Shown here: positions 11,859 to 60,638 of the stretch, in pieces
Layout: the number at the start of each line of letters is the position of its first letter
How positions within the stretch are numbered: position 1 is the first letter of the stretch
From: Planctomycetota bacterium
GTDB lineage: Bacteria > Planctomycetota > UBA8742 > UBA2392
Length of the DNA stretch: 64,000 bases
NCBI GenBank assembly: GCA_019636195.1
Contig: JAHBYA010000005.1
Location: 188,174-252,173 of the forward strand
Reading direction: 5' to 3'
The notes under the pieces: model-generated
What the model was told of the DNA's origin: nothing
Databases searched by the model: none
Seen by the model: the letters and a program-made list of their open reading frames with translations, nothing else
Position numbers and translations under genes: made by a program

Positions 11859-14800
11859 TCAGGCCCGTGACCGGCGGCTGCGAACTGCCAGCAGCCCCGC
11901 CATTGAACCGGCCAATGCGAGCCAGAGCAGGTTGCTGGTGCCATCGGTGGTGCAGCCTTCGCTGCCCTTCTTTTTCTTCTTTTTGCCGCCACCGCCGCCA
12001 GCCGTGTTGATCGTGAGCGTAAACACTGCCGTGTTCTGCACGTTGGCGCTGTCGGTCACGCGGATCGTGAAGGTCTGGACCTCTGCCGCGTTGGGCGTGC
12101 CGTCAAGCAGGCCGCCTGTGCTGAGAGATAAGCCGCCGGGCAGTGTCCCGGCCGCAACGGCAAAGGTGTTTCCGCCGGCGCCGCCTGTGGCAGTGAACTG
12201 GACGCTGTAGGCGGTGCCGACCGTGCCGTTCGGGAGCGGGCTTGCGTTGTCGATGACCGGGATGCCTGCAGCTGGCGCCACAACGTCTATGTCATAGACC
12301 TGCACTCCGGTTACGCCAAGACTGTCAGTCACCGTAAGTGTCACGCTGAAGCTGGCCGGAGTCACCGTTGTAAGCCCGGTGATCGCCCCGTTGGCAGCAA
12401 TGCTGATGCCCGCAGGGAATGCACCCGCCGTCAGTGTGAACGCAAGCGAGCCGGTGCCGCCGCTGGCTGTGACGGTCTGGCTGTACGACACGTTCTGGGT
12501 TACGTCCGGCAACGGGTTGGCGGTGCTGAAGCTGGGGGCGGGATTGACTGTTACAGATACTGTGAAGGTCGAGTCGTTGCCGTTTACGTCCTCGATCTCG
12601 ACTTCGTAAACCTGTATGCCCACGTCGGTGGCGTTCAGTGTGCCGTCAGGGAACACGGTAAATGTTGCACCGGTGCCAAGACTGAAGTCAAAGCCTGCAC
12701 CTGCCGTGCCTGATACCAGTATAGCGCCGGTGATGGTGAAGGTGGTCTGGCTGGTATTGGGGTCGCTGATGGTGGCCAAGGCAACTGTAGCAGTACCGGT
12801 CATTGTTTGCGTGTATGTTGCCAGAAACGGGCTGCCGGGCGTTCCCGTGCCGGTCTGGCCCGTAACCGGCGTAGCGACCGGCGGCAGGTCGTTGATAGTG
12901 ATCGTGACGGTGTAGCCGACCGGAGGGTTGACGCCGTCGTCGAGGGTGATGTCCCACTCGTAGGTTCCCGGTACATCCGCGCCCGAGACGTTACCCGACC
13001 AATTCAAGGCGACTGTGCCGGTCAAGCCGGTACCGCCTGTCGGGGCGGTGATGCCGGAGGGAGGAGTGCCTCCCATCGGACCGGTTGCAAACGTGACTGT
13101 AATGTTCATCGGGTCACCGTCGGGATCTGTGGCCTCAAGGTTTGCGGTACCGATCGATGCACCAGGATCCCTTGCCAGACCAAAGTCGCTTCCAGCCGCA
13201 AATGTGCTGCCGGTGGCCAGTGCCAGAACCGGAGCTGCGTTATGAAGGAACTCGTGCGCACCGATGTCTGAGTCCACGCCGTTGGGGCGAGCAGTACCGA
13301 AGATGTCCTCGCTTGCTGCGGACGCTGTGTCGCCGGTGTCAACCGCGGGCGAAGCGACGGACGACAACCGAAGGTCTTCGGTGCCAACCGTTGTGCTGGC
13401 GAGTTGCGGGTCAACATTGTAGCCGTTGGCGTCATAGGTTCCCTGCCAGGTAGTGAAGTTCGGGAACGATGTAGTATCGGCGTGAAAGGTCGCACCGTTG
13501 TTGAACTCGTAAATGTTGTAGTTGCTGCCGGTCGGGTTGGAGCCGAGATTGGCACCAGCGACGAAGCCCAGAGTCGGGCAGCCAGCGGATGAGTTGTAAA
13601 CGATGTTGTCGTTTAGAGTCGCGATTGCAGACCCCCCGAATCCGTCGAAGTGGCGGATCGCCGGCGCGGCATTAGCGCCGTTATTGTGTACAATGGTATT
13701 GTTGCGAATGACCGTACCAGTGCAGTTGCCGATGAGCAGGTTGCCGTTGAGGTTCACCGCCAGGCCCAGCAACGTCGCGCTGTCACCGTCATTGGCCCAA
13801 AGGAAATTGTTCTCGACCACTGCGTTGGTCAGATTTGGCCCACCCAGACCCACAAGTCCAAGGCCGGGGCCGCCATGTCCATAGATCCTGTTTCGGCGGA
13901 CTGCAATTCGCGGCGCGGTGTCATTCACCAGGCATGCCAGCCCAAAATCCGTGCCACCCTGAATCGTAAGTCCCTCAATCGCAATGCTCACATGGCGGAT
14001 GGACATGGTGCCGGCGCCTGCACCCACAAGCGTCGCGCCCGAGCCTGCCACCACGGGGCTGCTGCCAGGCGCCGCAACCACGATGATGTTGTTTACTGCT
14101 GAGTTGCCATCAACCGGGTCCGGAGTACCGGCATCCGAACCAAGCTCATAGCTCGCGGTGCTGGTGAAGTTGCCACCGGCGTCGGAGACCTCAAGCGTAA
14201 CAGGCCCGGCGACGCCGAAGTCTTCAAGGTCGTCAAAAAAGTCGCCGATGTCGCCGTAATCGAACGCGCCGCCCGGGTTGTTGCTGGCGACGGTGTACAG
14301 GCCTATCAGGCCCACGCGGATCGTGAAGCTCAGCACAGTGTCGACCGTGCCGTCGTTTGCCGTCAACTGCACGGCAATCAGTCCAAAGGTGTTAAAGGTT
14401 CCGGTGGAAGGCGTTGCCACAAGTGGCTGGGTGGGCGGTACACTGGGGCCGGCATTCCACTCGGCCTGAACAAAGCCCGTGATGCCCGCACTCACAACGG
14501 CCGTCAGGGTCAGCGTGTCGCCGGTGTCAGCGTCCGTGACCGAGAACTCAAGGTCCAGTGCAGCCAGTGTCGAGCCTTGGGCAACGGCGATGGTGGTGCC
14601 ATTGGTAATGGCAACGGGCGTGGTGGATGCATCGCGGTTGACCGTTAGTGCCGGCGCAGTGTTGCCACCAACGGATGTAAACGTAATGGACCAGCCGCCT
14701 GCCATCGCACCTGAGTCAGCTCCAGCATCGTCGGCACACCAGAGGCTCCAGGTGCCATTGATGGTACCACTGGCCAACGCCATCAACGTCGTGCCCGTGA

Positions 14801-15248
14801 AGGGCCGCTGCGGCGCTGAGGCCGGCAGGTTGTCGGTTGCCTCCAAGTCCGTCGGACGGTAAGTGCCCGCAACAATTGCGGCTGCGGTCAGTGGATTAGC
14901 AGCATTGTCGTCAAATGTAAGGTTGATGCCCAAAATGTCGGTACCACCGCCGCAGTCCGACATAATCATGACCGTTTGGCCCGAGGGCGACTGAAGAATG
15001 ATGTCTATGTCCGAGGGCCAAGTGTGCGAGAGGTTGGTTAGTGTAACGGTGATGTTGGTGACTGTCCCGGTCACGCCTGACACGGCAACCTGACTAGGAT
15101 ATGGGCTGCCTGCCGCAGGACCGGTACCGGTTCCCGGTATGGCAATACTGCCTGTATTCTGGAAAGTCTGCGCCGAAAGCGAGGCGGAGGCGATCACAGC
15201 AATCGCAGCTACTGCCAATACTCGGCGTACTGTCTTGTACACCTTCAT
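11859..15248 (-). CDS. Large exported beta-helix/Ig-like protein with C-terminal surface tag
   Basis: The product is 1129 residues. The ATG at 15248 has AGGAGAG 7 nt upstream and a clear signal peptide (VLAVAAIAVIASASLSAQ). The first 180 residues resemble the proprotein-convertase P domain (SHTWPSDIDIILQSPSGQTV, GTWSLWCADDAGADSGAMAG). A cadherin-like segment follows, then a right-handed beta-helix-like part with Asn-rich turns (about residues 330-660), then three putative-Ig-type repeats (LPDVTQNVSYSQTVTASGGT; LPNGTVGTAYSVQFTATGGA). It ends with GGGGGKKKKKKG, Cys, a hydrophobic helix and RSRRSRA, a sorting-tag architecture like MYXO-CTERM. It is expected to be displayed at the cell surface. 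Ligand and role are unknown. Confidence 0.8.
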   Translation of the reverse strand: MKVYKTVRRVLAVAAIAVIASASLSAQTFQNTGSIAIPGTGTGPAAGSPYPSQVAVSGVTGTVTNITVTLTNLSHTWPSDIDIILQSPSGQTVMIMSDCGGGTDILGINLTFDDNAANPLTAAAIVAGTYRPTDLEATDNLPASAPQRPFTGTTLMALASGTINGTWSLWCADDAGADSGAMAGGWSITFTSVGGNTAPALTVNRDASTTPVAITNGTTIAVAQGSTLAALDLEFSVTDADTGDTLTLTAVVSAGITGFVQAEWNAGPSVPPTQPLVATPSTGTFNTFGLIAVQLTANDGTVDTVLSFTIRVGLIGLYTVASNNPGGAFDYGDIGDFFDDLEDFGVAGPVTLEVSDAGGNFTSTASYELGSDAGTPDPVDGNSAVNNIIVVAAPGSSPVVAGSGATLVGAGAGTMSIRHVSIAIEGLTIQGGTDFGLACLVNDTAPRIAVRRNRIYGHGGPGLGLVGLGGPNLTNAVVENNFLWANDGDSATLLGLAVNLNGNLLIGNCTGTVIRNNTIVHNNGANAAPAIRHFDGFGGSAIATLNDNIVYNSSAGCPTLGFVAGANLGSNPTGSNYNIYEFNNGATFHADTTSFPNFTTWQGTYDANGYNVDPQLASTTVGTEDLRLSSVASPAVDTGDTASAASEDIFGTARPNGVDSDIGAHEFLHNAAPVLALATGSTFAAGSDFGLARDPGASIGTANLEATDPDGDPMNITVTFATGPMGGTPPSGITAPTGGTGLTGTVALNWSGNVSGADVPGTYEWDITLDDGVNPPVGYTVTITINDLPPVATPVTGQTGTGTPGSPFLATYTQTMTGTATVALATISDPNTSQTTFTITGAILVSGTAGAGFDFSLGTGATFTVFPDGTLNATDVGIQVYEVEIEDVNGNDSTFTVSVTVNPAPSFSTANPLPDVTQNVSYSQTVTASGGTGSLAFTLTAGAFPAGISIAANGAITGLTTVTPASFSVTLTVTDSLGVTGVQVYDIDVVAPAAGIPVIDNASPLPNGTVGTAYSVQFTATGGAGGNTFAVAAGTLPGGLSLSTGGLLDGTPNAAEVQTFTIRVTDSANVQNTAVFTLTINTAGGGGGKKKKKKGSEGCTTDGTSNLLWLALAGSMAGLLAVRSRRSRA

Positions 15249-21095: not shown

Positions 21096-22508
21096 CTACT
21101 CGCGGCGCAGCAGGGTGCGTGTGCCTGCTAATGCCAGCAGCGCCAGCAGCAGCGCCAATGCACTGGTGCCGCCAAGGTCACAGCCGCCGCCACCGCCGCC
21201 GCTCTTTTTCTTGCCGCCGCCACCGCCCGGCAACCCGCCATCGTTGTCCAGGATGCTCAGGGAAGCGCTGGCGGGCGTGCCGACTGTGTAGCCGGTGCCG
21301 GTGGTGATCGTCAGGATCACAGTTTCCGTTGCTTCGCCAACGGAGTCATCGATCGGGGTGATCGTCACGGTTGCGGTGCCGCTGGTATCGATGGTGACCA
21401 CGCCTGCGGTAGCGCCCGTGACCGTGTAGTCCGTGCCCGAAGTAGCCGTGCCGGTGAAGTTGACGTTGACGCTGATCGGGCTGCTCGGCGCCGGCGTTGC
21501 GGTCAGCGTGAACGTGCCGTTTGTCGGCCCGGATTCACTCGGGGTGCCGCCGGCGGCGACCGTGACTACAGGGGTTCCGCCGCCGCCGCCCTGCCAAGTA
21601 ACGCTGTTGTCAGTGCTGGTGGAAGCCTGGTTGGTGAGCCCGCTGGTCACGCCGGTAGCACCGCCCCCCGGAATGCTTGCCACAACCGTGCCGTTCGTGG
21701 TCATCCCTGTGACACTGACGGTGTAGTTTGCACCTGTACCGGTCACGCTGGCCAGGAGCGTGCCGCCCGCCGTGCTGCCGGCAAAGCTCACGTCCGTGCC
21801 GTCAAAGCCCGTGACGCTTTCACTGAACACCACATCGAAAACAATCGGTGAGGTTGACGTCGGGTCGGACTGCGTCGAACCCTGGTTGATGGTGACTGCC
21901 GGGCCGCTGCCACCCCCGCCTGAAGTTGTGATCGTCAGCGTGGCGGCTGTCACGGAGCCTGTGTCGGCGGTCCAGCCATCGCGAAACCTCAGTGTCCAGG
22001 TCCCGTTGGCGATCGCGGAAGACATCCCGCCGAACGTCGTGTTCAGGCTGGTCAAAACTTCCGTGGTAGTTGTCGCGCCCGACTGGACTGCACGGTAGCT
22101 GCCTGTCGGGATCGCTCCACCGCCTGCTGCCAACGCAGCGGACCAGAAGCCCTGCGACGCCGCGTCATTGAAGGTGTATGTGCCCCCCAACTGGGAGTCG
22201 CTTCCTCCGGCACCCAGGTTTGATTCAAGGTACTCGAAAAGCAGGTGCTGGGTAGCGTTCGGCGCGAACAAGATGCACTCAAGGTCGCCAATCCAGGTGT
22301 GCGAGCCCGTAAATGCCACCTGCACATTGGTCACGTTGCCGGTAAGGCCGGTCACGTTGAACGAGATCGTCAGCGGCGTCCCGTAGTTCATCGGGCCGGC
22401 GGCGGGAGAGTCAGGAATGGCGCCGGTTCCTGTGCCGGTAAATGACGATTGTGCAAGCAGCGAATTGCTTGCGAGGAGACAGAGAACTACAGCCGCAAGA
22501 CGTGGCAT
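21096..22508 (-). CDS. Exported P-domain/Calx-beta protein with C-terminal surface tag
   Basis: The product is 470 residues. AGGAGG precedes the ATG and a signal peptide is present (LAAVVLCLLASNSLLAQ). An N-terminal proprotein-convertase P-like domain (TGSHTWIGDLECILFAPNAT, GTWTLRFRDGWTADTGSV) is followed by an Ig-like domain (SPIVFDVVFSESVTGFDGTD) and a Calx-beta domain (SGTDYTVTGATAGVVTIDTS, ITPIDDSVGEATETVILTI). It ends with GGGGGKKKSGGGGGGC, a hydrophobic helix and TLLRRE. It is a likely surface protein in which Calx-beta and P domains mediate calcium-dependent adhesion or support. The 3' end is almost identical to that of the next gene. Confidence 0.8.
   Translation of the reverse strand: MPRLAAVVLCLLASNSLLAQSSFTGTGTGAIPDSPAAGPMNYGTPLTISFNVTGLTGNVTNVQVAFTGSHTWIGDLECILFAPNATQHLLFEYLESNLGAGGSDSQLGGTYTFNDAASQGFWSAALAAGGGAIPTGSYRAVQSGATTTTEVLTSLNTTFGGMSSAIANGTWTLRFRDGWTADTGSVTAATLTITTSGGGGSGPAVTINQGSTQSDPTSTSPIVFDVVFSESVTGFDGTDVSFAGSTAGGTLLASVTGTGANYTVSVTGMTTNGTVVASIPGGGATGVTSGLTNQASTSTDNSVTWQGGGGGTPVVTVAAGGTPSESGPTNGTFTLTATPAPSSPISVNVNFTGTATSGTDYTVTGATAGVVTIDTSGTATVTITPIDDSVGEATETVILTITTGTGYTVGTPASASLSILDNDGGLPGGGGGKKKSGGGGGGCDLGGTSALALLLALLALAGTRTLLRRE
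21130..21206 (-). repeat. 77-base direct repeat, copy 1 (tag-coding region)
   Basis: This stretch is identical to 22760-22836. It encodes the Gly-Cys-hydrophobic part of the C-terminal tag (SGGGGGGCDLGGTSALALLL and on) in two neighbouring genes. Perfect identity including silent sites indicates a recent duplication or gene conversion. Confidence 0.85.
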
Positions 22509-38086: not shown

Positions 38087-40807
38087 TTACTGCCGGGCCC
38101 GGCGCATGCGTGTGGCAAGCACGAGTCCGGAAAGCGCCAGCATCAGCAGCAGCCAGTTGCCGTTGCTGCCGTCGGTGCTGCAGCCGCCGTCACCGCCGCC
38201 GCCGCCGCCCTTCTTCTTCTTGCCGCCGGACGATGTCAGCGCAACGCCCGCGGTCATGTTCGGAAGCGCCGGGAAGCCGGTGTAAACCGCGCTGGTGCCG
38301 CCCGTGATGCCGTTGAAACGGATCTGTGCACGGCCATTGAACTCGCAGGCATCGGAGCGCACACGTGCAAAAATCAGGAAGTTGCGCGTCACGTTCACGT
38401 ATGCGAACTCGTTCCGGTGCAGCGGGATCTCGTGGAAGGTAGCAAGGGCTCCGTTGCTTGCCCGAATCGGGTAGTCGCTCGCGTCAAGCTGGCCAATCGG
38501 GCCGGCACCTTCAATGTACGCAAACACTTCCAGCGTTGCCCGGCCGGCGCCGCCCCAGGCGTTGAGCAGTTCAAACTCGATGTGCGCGGGGAAGCCGCCG
38601 CCGTTGCGCGGTTCCTGCTGGACGCGGGCAATCAACTGCCAGCCGTTCATGCTGATCGTGCCGGACGGCGACACCAATTGCACGGTCACGTCAACACCGG
38701 TTGAGCCGGAGTTGTACACACTCAAGTACCCCTCTACGTCGTTTCCGGCGCTGACCGACATGACAGAACCGCTGACACCCGCCGTACCAAGCGAGTAGGC
38801 GTGGGTGCCCAGCGAAGCCGCGGCCTGCAAGTCCACGACTACCATGTAGCGGCTGCCCGCGGCGGTGATGGACTCGGACAACGCCGTGAAGGTGATGTTT
38901 GTGGCGGAAAGCGTCGTGGCGGTTGCCACCAGCGTGTCGCCGGCGTCAAGCCGGCCGGGCGACGTGCCGTGGTCAAGGTACAGCCGCGCCGCCGTCAAGA
39001 TCGAACCGACGCCGTCAAAGTTGAGGCCGGTGACGGTCTGCGTGCCGGCCGAAGCCTGCATCACAAAGTGCAGCAGCGGCACGTTGGTTGCGCCCTGGAA
39101 AACCGGCAGGTTTTTCTTGTGGCAGGTGGCTTCATTCAGCTTCAGGCCGATCACCGCGGTTGTGGGCATTACCATCAAGTCAACCGAGTTGGCGCTATCG
39201 CACTCCTCCCAGAACGCGTTGGAGGGCGTAAACGAAGTGTTGCCGCTGTCGATGATGATGCCGATTGTGCCGACCGACGAAGACGTATAGCTGGTGCCGA
39301 TCATGATCGTGATCAGGTAATCCTGGCCTGTGCTGGTGATCGCCTCAGACAGTGCGCTGAACACCAGCGTGGGCGACATCGGGTTGTTGATCGCGCCAAT
39401 CTGCACGTCGGCGCCGTCCAGCACGCCCGGCGTGCCGTTGTCGCGGTAAAGGCGCACCGCGGTCACGTCGCCTAGGACCACGTCCACAAGGTTGATCAGG
39501 TCAGCTTCAAACGAGTTCAGGGTAACCGGCTGGCCGTTGCCGTGCTTGAGGCGGACTTCAAAGCTTGCCAGTTCGCGCTCGGCGCCGCCTGCGAACACGG
39601 GGATCTTCTGGGTGACGGCGCGTGAGACTTCAAACTCGACCTTCGGGCCTTCCAGGAACACGTGGTCAAAGTTCTCGGGTTCCGTGTTGCCCGTGAAGTA
39701 GCCGCCCCAGATGGAGGCGCCGGTGGTGCCGACGTCGCCATAGTCGGCGAGATTCATGAAGAAGTAGCTCTCAAAGTCTTCGTCAATTGAAGTCACGTCA
39801 ACGGCCAACAGGTAGTGGCGCGTTGGCGTGGTGCCATCAAGTACTTCTGTCAGGCCTGTGAACGAAGTGGGCGAGCTTGCCAATGCCATGCTGCCGAGCT
39901 GCACGTCGCCGCCATCCAGCACTCCCAGTGTGCCGGTGTCGCGGTACAGGCGCAGTGTCAGGGTGTGGCCGGAGGGAGACTGGTGGTTGACGTCGATGCG
40001 ATTGACGGTGCCGCCGGTGCCGTTGGCGTCCAAACGGAACGAACCGACCACCACGCCGGTCTCGCCCTCGAACGCAACCTTGGGGGCGTAGTTGAAGCCG
40101 TGGCGCGGCGAAAGCACGATGCCGCTGGACTGCATGTAGCCGCTGGGCACGAGCGACACCAACGTGCCGTTGGCGGGCAGGGCGCTGGTCAGGTTCAGTG
40201 TGTTCACGAGGCCCGCGAATGTCTGGGTGCCGTCCGCGTTGACGATGCCCGAGACAAAGTTTTCCGGGTCGTTGATGATGGCCGTGGCCGGGCCCATGTG
40301 CATGCGGATTTCGCCGCTGGGGAACAGGTGGCACTGAAAGCTCATCCAGCTCAACTGTTCATTGGCGTCATAGAACGTCACACGCGTCCACTGAAAGACC
40401 ACGCGGCCGGACTCGTAGAACACTTTGAACTGCTGCGGGCGCAGGGCGTTAAGGGAGCCCGTCACGTCAGACGCAATCACGGCAATGGCTTCCAGCAGGT
40501 CATTCTCGGTGACGGTCGGGTTGATGTCGGTGATGTCGTAGTCTTCAACTGCAAAGTCGCTGAAGTGGATGCGGCCATTTGTGTTCATCCAGCAGCCGCG
40601 GTAGGTGCGGTCAAAAAACGGAAACGCAAACGGCAGCGGCACAAACAGGCAGCCGTCGTCGTAGTCGCTGTCAGTCGCGATCAGCGACGCGCCGGCGCCC
40701 GTGCGCTCGGTGTACGAACCTGTTGATTGAGTGCGCGTGTAAGTCTGCGCGGAAGCGGCGGCCGCAAATACGCAAAGCGGCAGCACCAGAAGTGCCAGAG
40801 CTTTCAT
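38087..40807 (-). CDS. Large exported beta-sandwich protein with C-terminal surface tag
   Basis: The product is 906 residues with a signal peptide (LALLVLPLCVFAAAASAQ). The first 200 residues resemble a nidogen-like extracellular domain (FFDRTYRGCWMNTNGRIHFS, FYESGRVVFQWTRVTFYDAN). The rest holds about four repeats of a beta domain with a shared unit of the type LYRDTGTLGVLDGGDVQLGS, LYRDNGTPGVLDGADVQIGA and LYLDHGTSPGRLDAGDTLVA. The end is GGKKKKGGGGGGDGGC, a hydrophobic helix and MRRARQ, the same tag as three other large proteins here. It is a likely surface protein. No ligand is predicted. Confidence 0.78.
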   Translation of the reverse strand: MKALALLVLPLCVFAAAASAQTYTRTQSTGSYTERTGAGASLIATDSDYDDGCLFVPLPFAFPFFDRTYRGCWMNTNGRIHFSDFAVEDYDITDINPTVTENDLLEAIAVIASDVTGSLNALRPQQFKVFYESGRVVFQWTRVTFYDANEQLSWMSFQCHLFPSGEIRMHMGPATAIINDPENFVSGIVNADGTQTFAGLVNTLNLTSALPANGTLVSLVPSGYMQSSGIVLSPRHGFNYAPKVAFEGETGVVVGSFRLDANGTGGTVNRIDVNHQSPSGHTLTLRLYRDTGTLGVLDGGDVQLGSMALASSPTSFTGLTEVLDGTTPTRHYLLAVDVTSIDEDFESYFFMNLADYGDVGTTGASIWGGYFTGNTEPENFDHVFLEGPKVEFEVSRAVTQKIPVFAGGAERELASFEVRLKHGNGQPVTLNSFEADLINLVDVVLGDVTAVRLYRDNGTPGVLDGADVQIGAINNPMSPTLVFSALSEAITSTGQDYLITIMIGTSYTSSSVGTIGIIIDSGNTSFTPSNAFWEECDSANSVDLMVMPTTAVIGLKLNEATCHKKNLPVFQGATNVPLLHFVMQASAGTQTVTGLNFDGVGSILTAARLYLDHGTSPGRLDAGDTLVATATTLSATNITFTALSESITAAGSRYMVVVDLQAAASLGTHAYSLGTAGVSGSVMSVSAGNDVEGYLSVYNSGSTGVDVTVQLVSPSGTISMNGWQLIARVQQEPRNGGGFPAHIEFELLNAWGGAGRATLEVFAYIEGAGPIGQLDASDYPIRASNGALATFHEIPLHRNEFAYVNVTRNFLIFARVRSDACEFNGRAQIRFNGITGGTSAVYTGFPALPNMTAGVALTSSGGKKKKGGGGGGDGGCSTDGSNGNWLLLMLALSGLVLATRMRRARQ

Positions 40808-51564: not shown

Positions 51565-52815
51565 TTACTTGGCGTCGGGCTTATAGACCGTGCCGATGAA
51601 CATGATTGAGCCGGTGCGGTCGTCCGTGATTGCCAACAGGAACGGCTTGTCGCAGCGCACCGTGAAGGGGCGTGGAGGGGCGCCGCGCGACATCATCACT
51701 GCCGTGGCCGCTGCTGCCTCGGTGCCTTCTTCATCAACTTCAATCACGGCTTCGTGAATCACCTGGTCAATAAACAGCTTGCCGCGCGCGCCGCCGACCT
51801 CAAAGCCCGAGAAGTCCGCTTCACGGCTGTTGAACGCCTTGGCCATGCCCAGCGCCTTCAGGTCGTTGCGGAGCTCTTTCTTGAACTTGATCTTGAAGCG
51901 CGGCAGGTGAATCGTGCCCGGCTGCTCGTACGCACTCTGCTGCCAGGCAGCCAGCTTGTCGCCGGTCAGGCCGTTCACCACGCTGTCGAGACTCTTGCCC
52001 TCTTTGGGCACGATCAGCCACATGTGGACCTTGGGGCCCGTGCCGGGCTTTTCCGGGTCGCCGGCGGGGCCGTAGGGCAGCGCCACCACCTGCACGTCTT
52101 CGTCGTCGGTGTACTTCCACTCGACTTTGGCGGGCGACTGCATCATCTCAATCCGCTGCTTCTTGCCGTCTGCGCCGTTGAAGTCGGCCTTGACCGTCTT
52201 GTCCTTGTCGAACTTGCTGGTCCAGTTGCCCTTGAAGTAGATCGCGTTGACCAGGATGCACACCGCGCCCTCGGGCGCTTCTTGCAGCAACTCAGGGATC
52301 TTCTTCTCCGTACGGTCGCTGACCCAGCCGTTGATCTCATCCTTGGCCTTTGGGTCGCTGAAGCTGATGCCCTTGATTTCGGCCTTGAACTCGTCGCTGA
52401 CCTTGGCCGAGAAATCCTTGTCCAGTGTGATGCGCGCGGGGTCAGCCCAGATGGCGTTGGCGATGTTCAGCTTCACGTCGTCACGGCCCGAAAGCGCCGC
52501 CATCAGCTTGCGGTTGGCCTCGCCGACCTCAAGCTCGCCGACGTGCATGGTCTTGTTCATTTCCGCCAGTGTGTCGCCCTTGGCGCCGCGGCTGGTCATT
52601 TGCAGGGCCATGCCGATGCTGGTAGGCGACAGAAGGGTGTTCTCGCCGGGCTTGTGCAGCTTGCGCAGCATTTCAACGCCGAAGCGGTTGTTGGCGGCGG
52701 ACAAGTCTTTGGCCTCTTTGGGTACAGGTGTTTCGGCCCGCGCGGGACCAAAGGTGAAGGCGGCAAAAAGGGCCGCGGATGCAGCGGCGGTCAGACCGAA
52801 GTTCAGCAATCGCAT
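51565..52815 (-). CDS. Exported serpin, inhibitory type
   Basis: Serpins trap serine or cysteine proteases by cleavage of a reactive loop. The product is 416 residues from the ATG at 52815 (GGAGG 5 nt upstream), with a signal peptide (AAASAALFAAFTFGPARAE). Core motifs are NTLLSPTSIGMALQMTSRGA, ILVNAIYFKGNWTSKFD and the C-terminal CDKPFLLAITDDRTGSIMFI. The hinge VDEEGTEAAAATAV has the small residues needed for loop insertion, so it should be inhibitory. Counting from the hinge, the scissile bond falls near S-R-G-A, which suggests Arg as P1 and a trypsin-like target; the loop is about two residues longer than in antitrypsin. The metallopeptidase next door is not an expected target. Confidence 0.92.
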   Translation of the reverse strand: MRLLNFGLTAAASAALFAAFTFGPARAETPVPKEAKDLSAANNRFGVEMLRKLHKPGENTLLSPTSIGMALQMTSRGAKGDTLAEMNKTMHVGELEVGEANRKLMAALSGRDDVKLNIANAIWADPARITLDKDFSAKVSDEFKAEIKGISFSDPKAKDEINGWVSDRTEKKIPELLQEAPEGAVCILVNAIYFKGNWTSKFDKDKTVKADFNGADGKKQRIEMMQSPAKVEWKYTDDEDVQVVALPYGPAGDPEKPGTGPKVHMWLIVPKEGKSLDSVVNGLTGDKLAAWQQSAYEQPGTIHLPRFKIKFKKELRNDLKALGMAKAFNSREADFSGFEVGGARGKLFIDQVIHEAVIEVDEEGTEAAAATAVMMSRGAPPRPFTVRCDKPFLLAITDDRTGSIMFIGTVYKPDAK

Positions 52816-52935
52816 AAAGTCCTCCAATCACGGCCGTGGGCGTGTGCAGTAAGACGCCGGCAAGCGCGGTGAGGTTCCGAAGACTCACAAGTTAAGGTGG
52901 CGAAGCGACTTGCGGCGGGTTGCAAATGTCAGCCG

Positions 52936-55899: not shown

Positions 55900-57147
55900 T
55901 CAGACCGGGGCAACCTTTTGCCAGACCACGTTGCGATACAACGTGAACGCCAGGTATCGCAGGGCATCCAGCGCGTGGTCGTCTTGCTTGACGGGCACGC
56001 GCTCGCCGTGCCGTGATGAGTCCTGCCAGCGGTAGCCCTCAATTTCGCGCAACAGGTTCACGCAGCGCGGGTCAATCACCAGCCGGGGCTCGCCGTCCCC
56101 CGCCAGCAGCATGCGCACGCACTCAATGCCCGGGTGCAGGTCATTCCGGGCCTGGCTGGTCCGAATGTTGTGCTTGGCCAGTTCAGCGCCCAGCGTTACG
56201 CCGCTTGGGTCAATCCATGCGGGCCCGATCACAAGGCCCTGCGCTTCAAGCTCGGCGTCAATGGCATGAATTGCCGCCGCGTGCAGGTCGGCGGTCGCCA
56301 AACACAGGTAGTGCTCGCGCAGCACCAGCAGGCGGTCGTCGGCATCGCGGCAGGCCCACAGGCAGCAGGTCGCGTTGGTGTAGCCGGCGTCAATGGCGCG
56401 ATACACGACCGCGCCTTGGGGCGCGGTGATGGGCGCGACGTGCCGGGTGCGCGAAAACTCGCGGTACACAAGGCCGTGCACGGTCGTGAACGCCCCGCCG
56501 TACTGCTCGTCAAAAGTCTCCGCGGGCAGCACGCGTCGGGCGGATTCAATCTCGGCGGCGGGTACCAGCGGGTTGTCCCAGGTCGCGAACCGAAAGCTGT
56601 GCCACTCGGGGTCGCCCTCCGTCGCGCGGTTGTACAGGTCATGCACCCAGTTCAAGCCGCGCGGCGTGGTCGGCACGACCATTCGCCCGGTCGTTGAACT
56701 CAGGCGCGCGCGCAGGTAGCGCTCAAAGACCTCGCCATCGATGTGGGCCGCTTCCGCCATCACCAGCCAGTCCACCGATTGGCCCAGCAGGCCTTGCGGG
56801 CGCAGCGCGGAGAGGCACCAGACCTCAGCGCCCCACGGGGTCACAAGGTGCGAAGGCCCGCTGCGCCCGCCGTCGGTCACCGCCTGCAGCGGCACATGCA
56901 GGCGCGCGCGCAGGTCGTTCAGGATGGCTTCAAACTCCGGCCGGGCCATGGCGTAGGTCGGGGCGACGACCCAGCCGCGCGTCGGGGCAGCCACCAGGTC
57001 AGCCAGCACGTCTTTGGCCGCCGCGAGCGACTTGCCGAAACGCGCCCCCGCGATCAGGACCTTGAAGCGTCCGCCCGACGCATGAAACTGCCGCTGGCCC
57101 TCGTGGGGCGCATAGCGGGTTTGCGCAAACACATCCGGTTGCATCAT
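55900..57147 (-). CDS. Terminase large-subunit-like ATPase/nuclease, outside a prophage
   Basis: Phage terminase large subunits pack DNA into capsids using an ATPase and a RNase H-like nuclease. The product is 415 residues from the ATG at 57147. The ATPase part shows a Walker A-like loop G34-ARFGKS in LIAGARFGKSLAAAK, a Walker B-like VDWLVMAEAAHI and the coupling motif VVPTTPRGLNWVHDLY. The nuclease part shows the first Asp in YRAIDAGYTNATCCLWAC, the middle acidic residue in AWIDPSGVTLG, and the final KQDDHALDALRYLAF typical of terminase nucleases. No portal, capsid, protease or tail genes lie near it. Its start codon overlaps the stop of the upstream gene (TGATG). Function outside packaging is unknown. 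Confidence 0.85.
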   Translation of the reverse strand: MMQPDVFAQTRYAPHEGQRQFHASGGRFKVLIAGARFGKSLAAAKDVLADLVAAPTRGWVVAPTYAMARPEFEAILNDLRARLHVPLQAVTDGGRSGPSHLVTPWGAEVWCLSALRPQGLLGQSVDWLVMAEAAHIDGEVFERYLRARLSSTTGRMVVPTTPRGLNWVHDLYNRATEGDPEWHSFRFATWDNPLVPAAEIESARRVLPAETFDEQYGGAFTTVHGLVYREFSRTRHVAPITAPQGAVVYRAIDAGYTNATCCLWACRDADDRLLVLREHYLCLATADLHAAAIHAIDAELEAQGLVIGPAWIDPSGVTLGAELAKHNIRTSQARNDLHPGIECVRMLLAGDGEPRLVIDPRCVNLLREIEGYRWQDSSRHGERVPVKQDDHALDALRYLAFTLYRNVVWQKVAPV

Positions 57148-58418
57148 CAGGGGGCCATCGCCTGCCACAGAAAGTAGGCGGGGCGGGCGTGCAGGCGCGC
57201 CAGCGCAGACTCAAGCACTGCTTGCGGCGGCTCATGCCCGCGGCTTGCGCCGTGGCCGGTGTTCGCGCGGGATTGCGCCACGGCGCGCAGGTGCCGTGCA
57301 AGCGCCGCGCAGTCAGCGGCCGGCAGTCGCTGTCGCAGGTACTCGCGGTACGCGGGCTGGATCAGCCGCGTGCTGTCGATCTCGCGGCGTTCACAAAAGC
57401 GCAACAGGCTTGCAATGGCGCGAGGCAGCTCAAGCTCGCAGACGCGTGCGAAGCCAGCCGCGGTCAGGAATCCGGTGAAGGCGCCCATCCGGGCGACACA
57501 TTCAATGTACGGCACGCCCAGCGCGCGGCAGCCGTGTTCAAGCAGCCGCCGCGCAATGCCAACCCCGCGCAGGCGCGGGTCAACCACTACGCGCTGCAAC
57601 AGGCGCAGGTCGCGATTCAGCGCGGCTGTGTCGGGTTGCGGCGGGTGCAGGAGCACCGGCAGCGCATGGCGACGCGCAGAAAGCAGGCGATGCGGGTAAC
57701 CGTAGATCGCGATGCCGGCGCGCCGACCGCGCAGCGCGGCAACGTACACCGCGCACACCGGACCAGGGTTGCCGGCGCCAAGGTAGTGCCAGTGCCGGAA
57801 ATGCCGCCAGTCGGCAAGGCGACCGGGCGTGATGACCACTTCGTCGCCAAGGTCTTCGCGCGCGGGCGGCGCGAGTGCCCGCACGTCGCCGTCGATCTGC
57901 AGCAGCCGGTCCGGGGCCATGTGCGGCAGGGTGGCGGGGTTGTGCGTGCTGACCGCCATGCGCAGGCCGCCGTCGGCAAGCCGCCGCAAAACCTGCGCCA
58001 GCGCGCACGCGGTAAGCGGGTCAAGGTGCGCGTCAAACTCGTCCGCGACCAGCAGCTCGCCCGGGGCCAGATTGCACAGCGCCAGGGCAAGGCGCAGGCG
58101 CTGCTGCTCACCGGCGGAAAGTTGCGGCGTGCCCAGGCGCCACAGCCGTCCGTCGGCAAGGCCGGTGCGCGCCAGCGTGCGCAGCACAAACTCGCTGGCA
58201 AGCCCGGGCGCGAACAGGTCCAGCACCGGCGCGTCCGAAAGCGCGGGCAGCTCGCGGCCGCCCAGCGCCTTCAGCGCCAGCGTCTTGCCGGCGCCGCTGG
58301 GGCCGGTGACGCACACGATTTCACCGGGGCCGGGTGCGGGCAGCGCGTGCACCGGCGGCGGCGCGGGTGCCGTCCAGGCTGACCCGAACGCGGCTTGCGC
58401 GTAAGCGGCGTGGGGCAT
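57147..58418 (-). CDS. ABC-type ATPase fused to an acetyltransferase (COG2401-like)
   Basis: The product is 423 residues. The ABC ATPase domain (about 20-195) has Walker A GPSGAGKT (39-46), signature LSAGEQ (100-105), Walker B LLVADE (122-127) and the switch His159 in MAVSTHNP. It has no transmembrane partner. A GNAT-like domain follows (about 195-330) with HWHYLGAGNPGP, the acetyl-CoA loop RVVVDPRLRGVGIARRLLEH and IECVARMGAFTGFLTAAGFA. The last 90 residues are helical and basic. This domain order matches COG2401. By analogy with SMC/MutS-like soluble ABC ATPases it may act on DNA, and its coupling with a terminase-like protein supports a nucleic-acid task. The substrate of the acetyltransferase is unknown. 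Confidence 0.85.
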   Translation of the reverse strand: MPHAAYAQAAFGSAWTAPAPPPVHALPAPGPGEIVCVTGPSGAGKTLALKALGGRELPALSDAPVLDLFAPGLASEFVLRTLARTGLADGRLWRLGTPQLSAGEQQRLRLALALCNLAPGELLVADEFDAHLDPLTACALAQVLRRLADGGLRMAVSTHNPATLPHMAPDRLLQIDGDVRALAPPAREDLGDEVVITPGRLADWRHFRHWHYLGAGNPGPVCAVYVAALRGRRAGIAIYGYPHRLLSARRHALPVLLHPPQPDTAALNRDLRLLQRVVVDPRLRGVGIARRLLEHGCRALGVPYIECVARMGAFTGFLTAAGFARVCELELPRAIASLLRFCERREIDSTRLIQPAYREYLRQRLPAADCAALARHLRAVAQSRANTGHGASRGHEPPQAVLESALARLHARPAYFLWQAMAP

Positions 58419-58788: not shown

Positions 58789-59823
58789 ATGCCCAGCCGC
58801 AGGCTGACCCGCGCAGAAGAAAACTTCGAAGTCCACATCCTCGGCGTGCCCATGGACCACGGCGCCGGCCGGCGCGGCGTGGGCATGGGCCCCAGCGCGA
58901 TCCGGATTGCCGGCCTGGCTGAGCGCTTGCGCGCGATCGGGCATGAGGTGACCGACCACGGCGACACGATCATCCGCGACATTGAGCGCGCCAGCCCTTC
59001 CCGCAAACCGGACGGCACACTGGCAGAGCCGCAGGCCGTCGTGCCGCCGCCGCCCACCATCAAGGGCAAGGCGAACAACCTGGCGGTGGTCGCGCGCGCC
59101 TGCGACGCAGTGCATGAGCACGTCAAGCGCATCGTGAAGAAGGGCGCGTTCCCGCTGGTAATCGGCGGCGACCATAGCATGAGCATCGGCACCGTGGCGG
59201 GTCTGGTGGCGGGCATGAAAGAGCTTGAGGCAGAGCGCCGGGCGGCGGGCGAAGACCACGAGTACACGATGGGCATGATCTGGATTGACGCCCACGGCGA
59301 CTTGAACACGCCCGAGACCACGCCCAGCGGCAACATTCACGGCATGCCGGTTGCGGTGGCGCTGGGCCACGGGCCCAAAGAGCTCACGCACATCGGCGGC
59401 ATGAGTCCCAAACTGTACGCCAACGACGTGGTGCTGCTGGGCCTGCGCGACCTCGACCGCGCCGAGAAGCAGGCGATTCTTGACTCAGGCGTGCACGCCT
59501 TCACGATGAAAGATATCGACGAGCGCGGCCTGGCCGCCGTGATGCGCGAAGCAATCAACCTTGCCACGCGCAACACCGACTTCCTGCACGTCAGCTTCGA
59601 TATCGACAGCGTTGACCCGCGCATCGCGCCCGGCACCGGCACCACCGTGCTGGGCGGCCTGACGTACCGCGAAGCGCACCTGGCGCTGGAGATGATCGCC
59701 GAAACCGGCCTGCTGAGCAGTTTTGAACTGGCGGAAGTCAACCCGATCCTCGACATGTACAACCAGACCGGCCAGCTTGCGGTAGGCCTGATCGCCAGCG
59801 CGCTCGGCAAGACCATCCTGTAG
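58789..59823 (+). CDS. Arginase
   Basis: Arginase hydrolyses arginine to ornithine and urea. The product is 344 residues with CAGGAA upstream; 300-350 is usual. The di-manganese ligands are visible: His in VIGGDHSMSIG, the DAHGD group in WIDAHGDLNTPETTPSGN, and the two Asp residues in VSFDIDSVDPRIAPGTG. The stretch NTPETTPSGNIHGMP is typical of true arginases rather than agmatinases. No other arginine genes are nearby. It is convergent with the selenoprotein gene downstream. Confidence 0.94.
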   Translation: MPSRRLTRAEENFEVHILGVPMDHGAGRRGVGMGPSAIRIAGLAERLRAIGHEVTDHGDTIIRDIERASPSRKPDGTLAEPQAVVPPPPTIKGKANNLAVVARACDAVHEHVKRIVKKGAFPLVIGGDHSMSIGTVAGLVAGMKELEAERRAAGEDHEYTMGMIWIDAHGDLNTPETTPSGNIHGMPVAVALGHGPKELTHIGGMSPKLYANDVVLLGLRDLDRAEKQAILDSGVHAFTMKDIDERGLAAVMREAINLATRNTDFLHVSFDIDSVDPRIAPGTGTTVLGGLTYREAHLALEMIAETGLLSSFELAEVNPILDMYNQTGQLAVGLIASALGKTIL

Positions 59824-59833
59824 GCCGCGTCGT

Positions 59834-60472
59834 TTACCGGGTGCGGTGTTGTGCTTCAAAACGGGGGCCCCGTCTGGCGGCGGCCCCTGCGGCAATCGTC
59901 GCGAGCGCAGCCAGCAGCGCCCACAGGCCGTCACCGCCGCTTCGCATGCCTGTGCTGCACTGCTCTTCCTTGGACGAGTTGCCCTTGCCCGGCGCCGGGT
60001 TCAGCCATCCCTCGACCATTTCGTTGGTGACGCTCGTGCTGGGCCCGATCCAGAGAATCTTGCCGTCGCGGCCGATTACATACACGGTTGAATAGGTCGG
60101 AATCGGGTAGTCGTTGTTGTCCGCTACCATCGCGACGCCGTAGGCCACGCCAAAGTTTGTAACGAAGTCCGCGATCTCCACGTCGGTGTCCGCAAAGTTC
60201 GCGCCCACCACCGCCAGCCCTTGCGCACCGTACAGCGTTTGCAACTCATTCAGCCGCGGCACGGCGGCCTGGCAGTGCCCTCACGTCGCGCCGAACCAGT
60301 CCAGGATCAGCACGTGGTCCGGTTGGTAGTCACTGACTTCGTCATGGCCGGCGGGGATGTTCCATGTCTGCAGGAAGGTCTTGTTTGCTGCCGGGTCGCC
60401 GACGGCCTGTGCCGCCAGTGTGCCGACACACAGGCATAAAAGGACAACGCCAAGAATGCGGGCCAGCGCCAT
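59834..60472 (-). CDS. Selenocysteine-containing TlpA/thioredoxin-fold protein with surface tag
   Basis: The reading frame begins at the ATG at 60472 with a signal peptide (LARILGVVLLCLCVGTLAAQ) and gives LILDWFGAT, a TGA at 60283-60281, then GHCQAAVPRLNELQTLYGAQ and GLAVVGANFADTD in the same frame. TlpA/thioredoxin proteins have W-C-x-x-C here; with UGA as selenocysteine the active site is U64-G-H-C67. The product is then 212 residues. Without readthrough the upstream piece ends before the active site and the downstream piece lacks the first strand. The C-terminus (SSKEEQC, Gly-rich linker, WALLAALATIAAGAAARR) resembles the surface tag of the large exported proteins. It is a predicted extracytoplasmic thiol/selenol oxidoreductase. 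A hairpin lies 17 nt after the TGA. Confidence 0.85.
60252..60269 (-). promoter_or_regulatory. Putative bacterial SECIS hairpin in the TlpA-like gene
   Basis: On the minus strand, after the TGA at 60283-60281, nt 12-17 (GGCCGC) pair with nt 24-29 (GCGGCT; one G-T pair), enclosing the loop CGTGCC. The loop starts 17 nt after the TGA and has G as its second base followed by U. This meets the general distance and loop rule for bacterial SECIS elements. Confidence 0.6.
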
Positions 60473-60638
60473 GATTGTCTCGATGGAACAGCCGGGAATT
60501 GTAACTCGGGCCACAGACGCTGCCAGCCGATCGCACCCGGCGCGCGCGCCATCGCCGGAATTGCTCTTGACATGGCAAGAGTTGTGCCTCATGCTGGTGT
60601 TTACGCGTCAATAGTGACGCAGCCAGCCAGGAGATGCC

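Follow-up and report, generated by a model that had tools for sequence, protein, structure and literature searches.

The single in-frame UGA of a gene in the 64-kb window, by which we mean the whole stretch of DNA analysed, is best explained as a codon for selenocysteine (Sec). With a probability of about 0.93, the gene is functional and UGA64 specifies the Sec of an exported ResA/TlpA-type redoxin with a U-G-H-C active site, probably held in the cell envelope by its C-terminal tail. The selenoprotein would be one member of an extensive group of exported redoxins with Sec, all from a single uncultured Planctomycetota family. The gene and the parts that would carry its activity are:

59834..60472, minus strand: selenoprotein gene, redoxin/ResA-TlpA-like, 212 codons plus TAA with one in-frame TGA
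60281..60283, minus strand: the TGA, predicted Sec64, at the nucleophile position of U-G-H-C; TGA in the same column in 6/6 orthologues and in 50 homologous genes
60272..60274, minus strand: predicted resolving Cys67 of U-x-x-C, invariant in a 43-row alignment
59993..60409, minus strand: thioredoxin/redoxin domain, residues 22-160, from Pfam, the AlphaFold model and PDB matches

The frame in complement(59834..60472) runs from ATG to TAA, and the TGA at codon 64 is its sole interruption, in the context FGAT-TGA-GHCQAAVP (in longer form ...LILDWFGAT-U-GHCQAAVPRLNE...). A sequence-only reading had placed a TGA exactly at the first active-site cysteine of an otherwise open frame, and this is what the 212-codon frame contains. 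The interval it gave, 59834-60472, does hold the frame, but on the minus strand, which it had left unstated; when read on the plus strand the same interval holds nothing. It had also expected standard gene callers to split the gene, and ordinary ORF calling indeed yields two minus-strand pieces, complement(60281..60592) and complement(59834..60262). The tail-to-tail neighbour of the selenoprotein gene is an arginase-like gene (named by eye; plus strand, 58789-59823). Neither the arginase nor RidA, dGTPase or the other flanking genes were found near the orthologues in relatives, and the neighbourhood therefore gives no operon clue and no hint of function. Two other parts of the window stood out by eye: at 55900-58418 (minus) a phage terminase-like ATPase lies beside an ABC-ATPase/acetyltransferase-like fusion, outside any obvious prophage, and the gene at 51565-52827 (minus) encodes a serpin-like protease inhibitor that starts with a signal peptide.

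The TlpA-like fold proposed from the letters is supported by both profile and structure searches. The protein scores above the cut-off for the Pfam families Redoxin (PF08534, 31.9 bits; cut-off 26.6) and AhpC-TSA (PF00578, 27.4 bits; cut-off 26), and its AlphaFold model has a pLDDT mostly of 93-98 over residues 21-160. ResA is the best match in a profile search (E 1.4e-29), and the best PDB matches of the model are to ResA (4nmu, 1st9; target TM 0.71-0.80), and also to DsbE-like proteins. Because the subfamily cut-offs are missed both for ResA proper (NCBIfam NF002854, 48.6 bits; cut-off 170) and for DsbE/CcmG (TIGR00385, 22.8 bits; NCBIfam cut-off 123), we call the protein ResA/TlpA-like. The likeness to ResA of Bacillus, an extracytoplasmic CxxC redoxin, thus lies in the best profile and fold match at about 17-24% identity, with Sec at the equivalent of Cys74; the selenoprotein differs in being tagged at its C-terminus, whereas ResA is anchored at the N-terminus, and no cytochrome c genes were seen adjoining its gene.

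From this high-confidence prediction, the product should adopt a thioredoxin fold of the ResA/TlpA type, with U-G-H-C as its active site, and we infer that it acts as an exported selenol-disulfide reductase, or as a peroxide or oxyanion reductase. The selenolate of Sec64 would most likely attack a disulfide or another oxidised substrate, after which Cys67 would resolve the mixed selenenylsulfide. One DsbD_TM protein was found in the source genome, and electrons from the cytoplasm would probably be resupplied through this single DsbD-type transmembrane reductase.

Where the protein acts depends on its two ends:

60410..60472, minus strand: signal-peptide-like N-terminus, residues 1-21 (MALARILGVVLLCLCVGTLAA), from sequence, with helix 3-17 in the model
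59837..59986, minus strand: MYXO-CTERM-like C-terminal tag, residues 163-212, with a linker, Cys172, a hydrophobic helix and an Arg-rich end

The N-terminal signal peptide would take the precursor across the inner membrane. The C-terminus, EEQCSTG...WALLAALATIAAGAAARR, is built of a cysteine, a hydrophobic stretch and arginines; the helix at 183-196 is modelled by AlphaFold with low confidence, and Cys172 (59957-59959) is invariant in 6/6 orthologues. The tag is common to these six orthologues (G000, the source genome, and G001, G002, G008, G012 and G013). A signal peptide, judged by sequence, and a tag like that of the large window proteins had both been claimed, and both are there: tags of the same build end three large exported proteins of the window (15248..11859, 22508..21096 and 40807..38087). 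The tail has the same three parts, namely an invariant Cys, a hydrophobic helix and clustered Arg residues, as the tails of the MYXO-CTERM/MrtX system (TIGR03901, NF040593; PMC11980579), for which processing has been demonstrated in Myxococcus (PMC11980579). However, that system is described for Myxococcota, and here both a match of the protein's own tail and an MrtX-type protease over the cut-off are absent. Specifically, none of the C-terminal sorting models, including MYXO-CTERM TIGR03901 (cut-off 20 bits), matches the tail of the selenoprotein itself. Two orthologue tails do pass TIGR03901, at 29.4 and 24.3 bits, as does one window protein, and in the source genome 16 tags exceed the cut-off, whereas the 14 control genomes have none. 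All five CPBP proteases of the source genome score below the myxosortase cut-offs; the best of them (L078, C6:25386-25646) resembles the archaeomyxosortase MrtA (83 bits, cut-off 200; E 3e-23) and is a candidate for the enzyme that would process the tag.

The build of the tag, the orthologue matches to TIGR03901, the 16 tags in the genome and the CPBP proteases make envelope anchoring of the selenoprotein likely, whereas its display on the surface is no more than plausible. The Cys, hydrophobic helix and Arg tail would hold the protein at the envelope, and the tail would probably be processed in the manner of MYXO-CTERM by an intramembrane CPBP protease. For the surface anchoring originally proposed, then, the resemblance of the tag to MYXO-CTERM stands, but the protein's own copy fails the model. 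The alternative that differs from the preferred reading in location only, a true selenoprotein that is periplasmic or anchored in the inner membrane by an uncleaved C-terminal helix, falls not far short of an even chance. The relatives ResA and TlpA act in the periplasmic space, the selenoprotein's own tag fits no sorting model, and the genome has no CPBP protease at the myxosortase cut-off. Set against this location are the orthologue tails that pass MYXO-CTERM, the tag cysteine kept in six of six, the excess of tags over the control genomes, and the one MrtA-like protease. Across the source genome as a whole, a MYXO-CTERM-like tag ends dozens of large proteins (51 places listed, 16 of them over the curated cut-off), and it may be worth building a separate model for the planctomycetal form of the tag.

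The preferred reading of UGA64 as Sec requires a route for decoding it, and the source genome (3.9 Mb in 26 contigs, 94.9% complete) holds every Sec gene that the sequence-only reading had suggested looking for. We find selB (339.7 bits; cut-off 242), a tRNA-Sec whose anticodon is UCA (69.2 bits), selA about 1 kb from it (532.5 bits) and selD (395.7 bits). The selD gene has an in-frame TGA of its own in the context GAGUGCK, by which motif it is a Sec-type SelD. The ribosome would decode UGA64 as Sec with the genome's own tRNA-Sec(UCA), SelA, SelB and SelD, as the very strong comparative evidence indicates. TGA also terminates several other genes of the 64-kb window, so there is no global reassignment of UGA, and a genome-wide change of code is ruled out.

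Decoding would further be aided by a stem-loop just 3' of the UGA, within the coding sequence:

60252..60269, minus strand: candidate bacterial SECIS upper stem-loop, GGCCGC / CGTGCC loop / GCGGCT, with a 6-bp stem and the loop 17 nt after the UGA

A hairpin with a CGTGCC loop had been placed 17 nt after the TGA; the loop sequence is right, but 17 nt is the distance to the loop, while the stem GGCCGC starts 11 nt 3' of the TGA, and G is the second loop base. We compared 40 of the genes with codon-shuffled controls. Their excess of folding falls only within the 48 nt that follow the UGA (z of about -0.8 to -0.9), against +0.15 to -0.45 elsewhere. The score that we used follows the rules of a bacterial SECIS for loop distance and G position: the loop lies 16-37 nt after the UGA and a G falls within the first two loop positions. 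The mean score of the 40 genes is 7.05, compared with 5.17 in 100 codon shuffles (sd 0.23, maximum 5.75), though these genes are related and the comparison therefore does not amount to 40 independent tests. A G in the small apical loop of the bacterial SECIS is also supported by earlier work (PMC1088965). The full register of the stem is matched in nine of the 40 genes and the others have shifted or shorter stems; loop position and register differ among paralogue groups, and a single fixed helix register imposed on all homologues does not exceed the best register in codon shuffles. An Rfam search of the region returned neither a SECIS nor any other credible family. For the selenoprotein gene alone, 8% of codon shuffles equal its SECIS score. 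The claim of a SECIS is therefore convincing in its family-wide score but not for the single gene: judged by folding and score, the hairpin is real at the level of the family and only suggestive for this gene taken alone.

A different decoding, in which a reassigned or suppressor tRNA reads UGA64 as Cys or Trp and no selenium is used, is very improbable. Cysteine would work too, since four homologues (L025, L026, L043 and L032) have Cys instead of Sec at the active-site position, but the genome has a tRNA-Sec(UCA) together with selA, selB and selD, other genes of the window continue to end at UGA, and the stem-loop excess sits right after the UGA, as a SECIS predicts. A tRNA-Sec charged with Cys at low selenium could possibly give a minor product.

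The homologues give very strong support for Sec. We searched 60 related genomes and found matches in 50; those relatives that have names are metagenome-assembled genomes (MAGs) of Planctomycetota. Among the matches listed, 72 of 90 have exactly one TGA (16 genomes of the same family; rows counted by hand), and 50 homologous genes, spread over 23 Planctomycetota genomes, have the TGA as the opening residue of U-x-x-C, a recurrence that goes far beyond chance. Its surroundings vary (FGATUGHC, FWATWUGPC, WAPGUSIC, WKIHUEPC). All six tagged orthologues, each in its own genome, have the TGA at codon 64, and their identity reaches down to about 36-41%. The check on homologues proposed with the sequence-only reading accordingly came out in its favour, with the TGA at one and the same position and frame damage absent in the 50 genes of the 23 genomes. 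In the closest pair, L016 and L017, dN/dS is about 0.14 before the TGA and about 0.10 after it; by this comparison purifying selection is equally strong on both sides, and since it persists past the TGA, the downstream part would be translated. The idea of a pseudogene or a sequencing error, that is, a Cys codon TGC or TGT turned to TGA in a gene that is dead or misread, needs only one base change from TGC in a draft assembly, but it is refuted by the same TGA kept in independent assemblies across the six diverged orthologues and the 50 homologous genes, by selection on the protein 3' of the TGA and by the sel genes of the genome, and is almost certainly wrong.

The presence of the TGA also follows that of the sel genes. 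SelA is encoded in 16/16 genomes of the same family, and among the listed homologues none has an active-site TGA in a genome that lacks both selA and a strong tRNA-Sec. Genome G040 has an active-site TGA and no selA match, but it does have a tRNA-Sec (74.3 bits) and is 80% complete. An apparent exception, G023, was rejected because the TGA lies at the end of the match, outside the active site (L064). In a plasmid collection there was one distant match, from Thermomicrobium, annotated as TlpA disulfide reductase family.

Sec-containing UxxC redoxin and TlpA-like families are known. A redoxin family selenoprotein (PF08534, UxxC) and a thiol-disulfide isomerase-like selenoprotein (cd02966, UxxC) are listed in Table 1 of a 2026 review (PMC13188914), and UxxC thiol-disulfide isomerase-like proteins were already present in the Sargasso Sea survey (PMC1088965). 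As listed, they have the same U-x-x-C with Sec first, and PF08534 is over its cut-off here; our protein carries a signal peptide and a sorting-type tag. A UGC-containing selenoprotein of the TlpA disulfide reductase family (cd02966, PMC13188914) is likewise a Sec protein of TlpA type, with the motif UGC as opposed to U-G-H-C (UxxC) here. The main text of that review does not use the terms periplasm, secreted, signal peptide, surface or Planctomycet-, and the phylum is also unmentioned in the main text of the deep-Sep paper (PMC12013277). Sec machinery and selenoproteins have been reported in Planctomycetes, in the Porphyra-associated P1 and P2 (PMC4807772), where the selenoproteins discussed in the main text are FdhA and FmdB. 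The combination of Sec, TlpA fold and sorting tag had been called unusual; this holds for the tag, but Sec with a TlpA fold was already listed (PMC13188914). In the selenoprotein literature compared we found no description of a selenoprotein with a MYXO-CTERM-type sorting tag, nor of the scale on which the exported TlpA-like proteins of this family use Sec. What appears to be new is thus the sorting tag on a Sec redoxin and the extent of Sec use.

With 72 of the 90 listed homologues in 16 genomes, Sec-containing exported redoxins appear to be the rule in this planctomycetal family, which suggests heavy extracytoplasmic selenium chemistry in an environmental lineage. Standard gene callers do not see these proteins because they split them at the UGA: the family has several such genes, each of which would normally be cut in two. 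The homologues also offer many naturally occurring pairs of Sec and Cys forms with which to ask why Sec is chosen. More speculatively, and we think it rather unlikely as a whole, Sec may have replaced Cys in most of the exported TlpA/ResA-type proteins of the family. Some of these would be lipid-anchored or joined to long surface proteins that resemble adhesins, and they would form an outward selenol redox layer, with extracellular disulfides, peroxides or metal oxyanions as the substrates to be reduced.

Some of the paralogues have unusual architectures. In one group (L021, L023, L038 and L050) a Sec-redoxin domain (WGINUGICQ or WAPGUSICQ) is followed by a glycine-rich linker and PKD-like repeats; these are long exported selenoproteins, one of them in the source genome (C22:44043-44594). 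Five genomes of the family have a tandem pair of Sec-redoxin genes (L046, L049, L051, L053 and L055), with WATWUGPC or WATNUSPC in one gene and WKIHUEPC in the other. Finally, the tagged orthologue of G008 (L018 1501-2097, minus) shares one open frame of 949 aa with the exported protein that follows it, and no stop lies from the tag to the next signal peptide.
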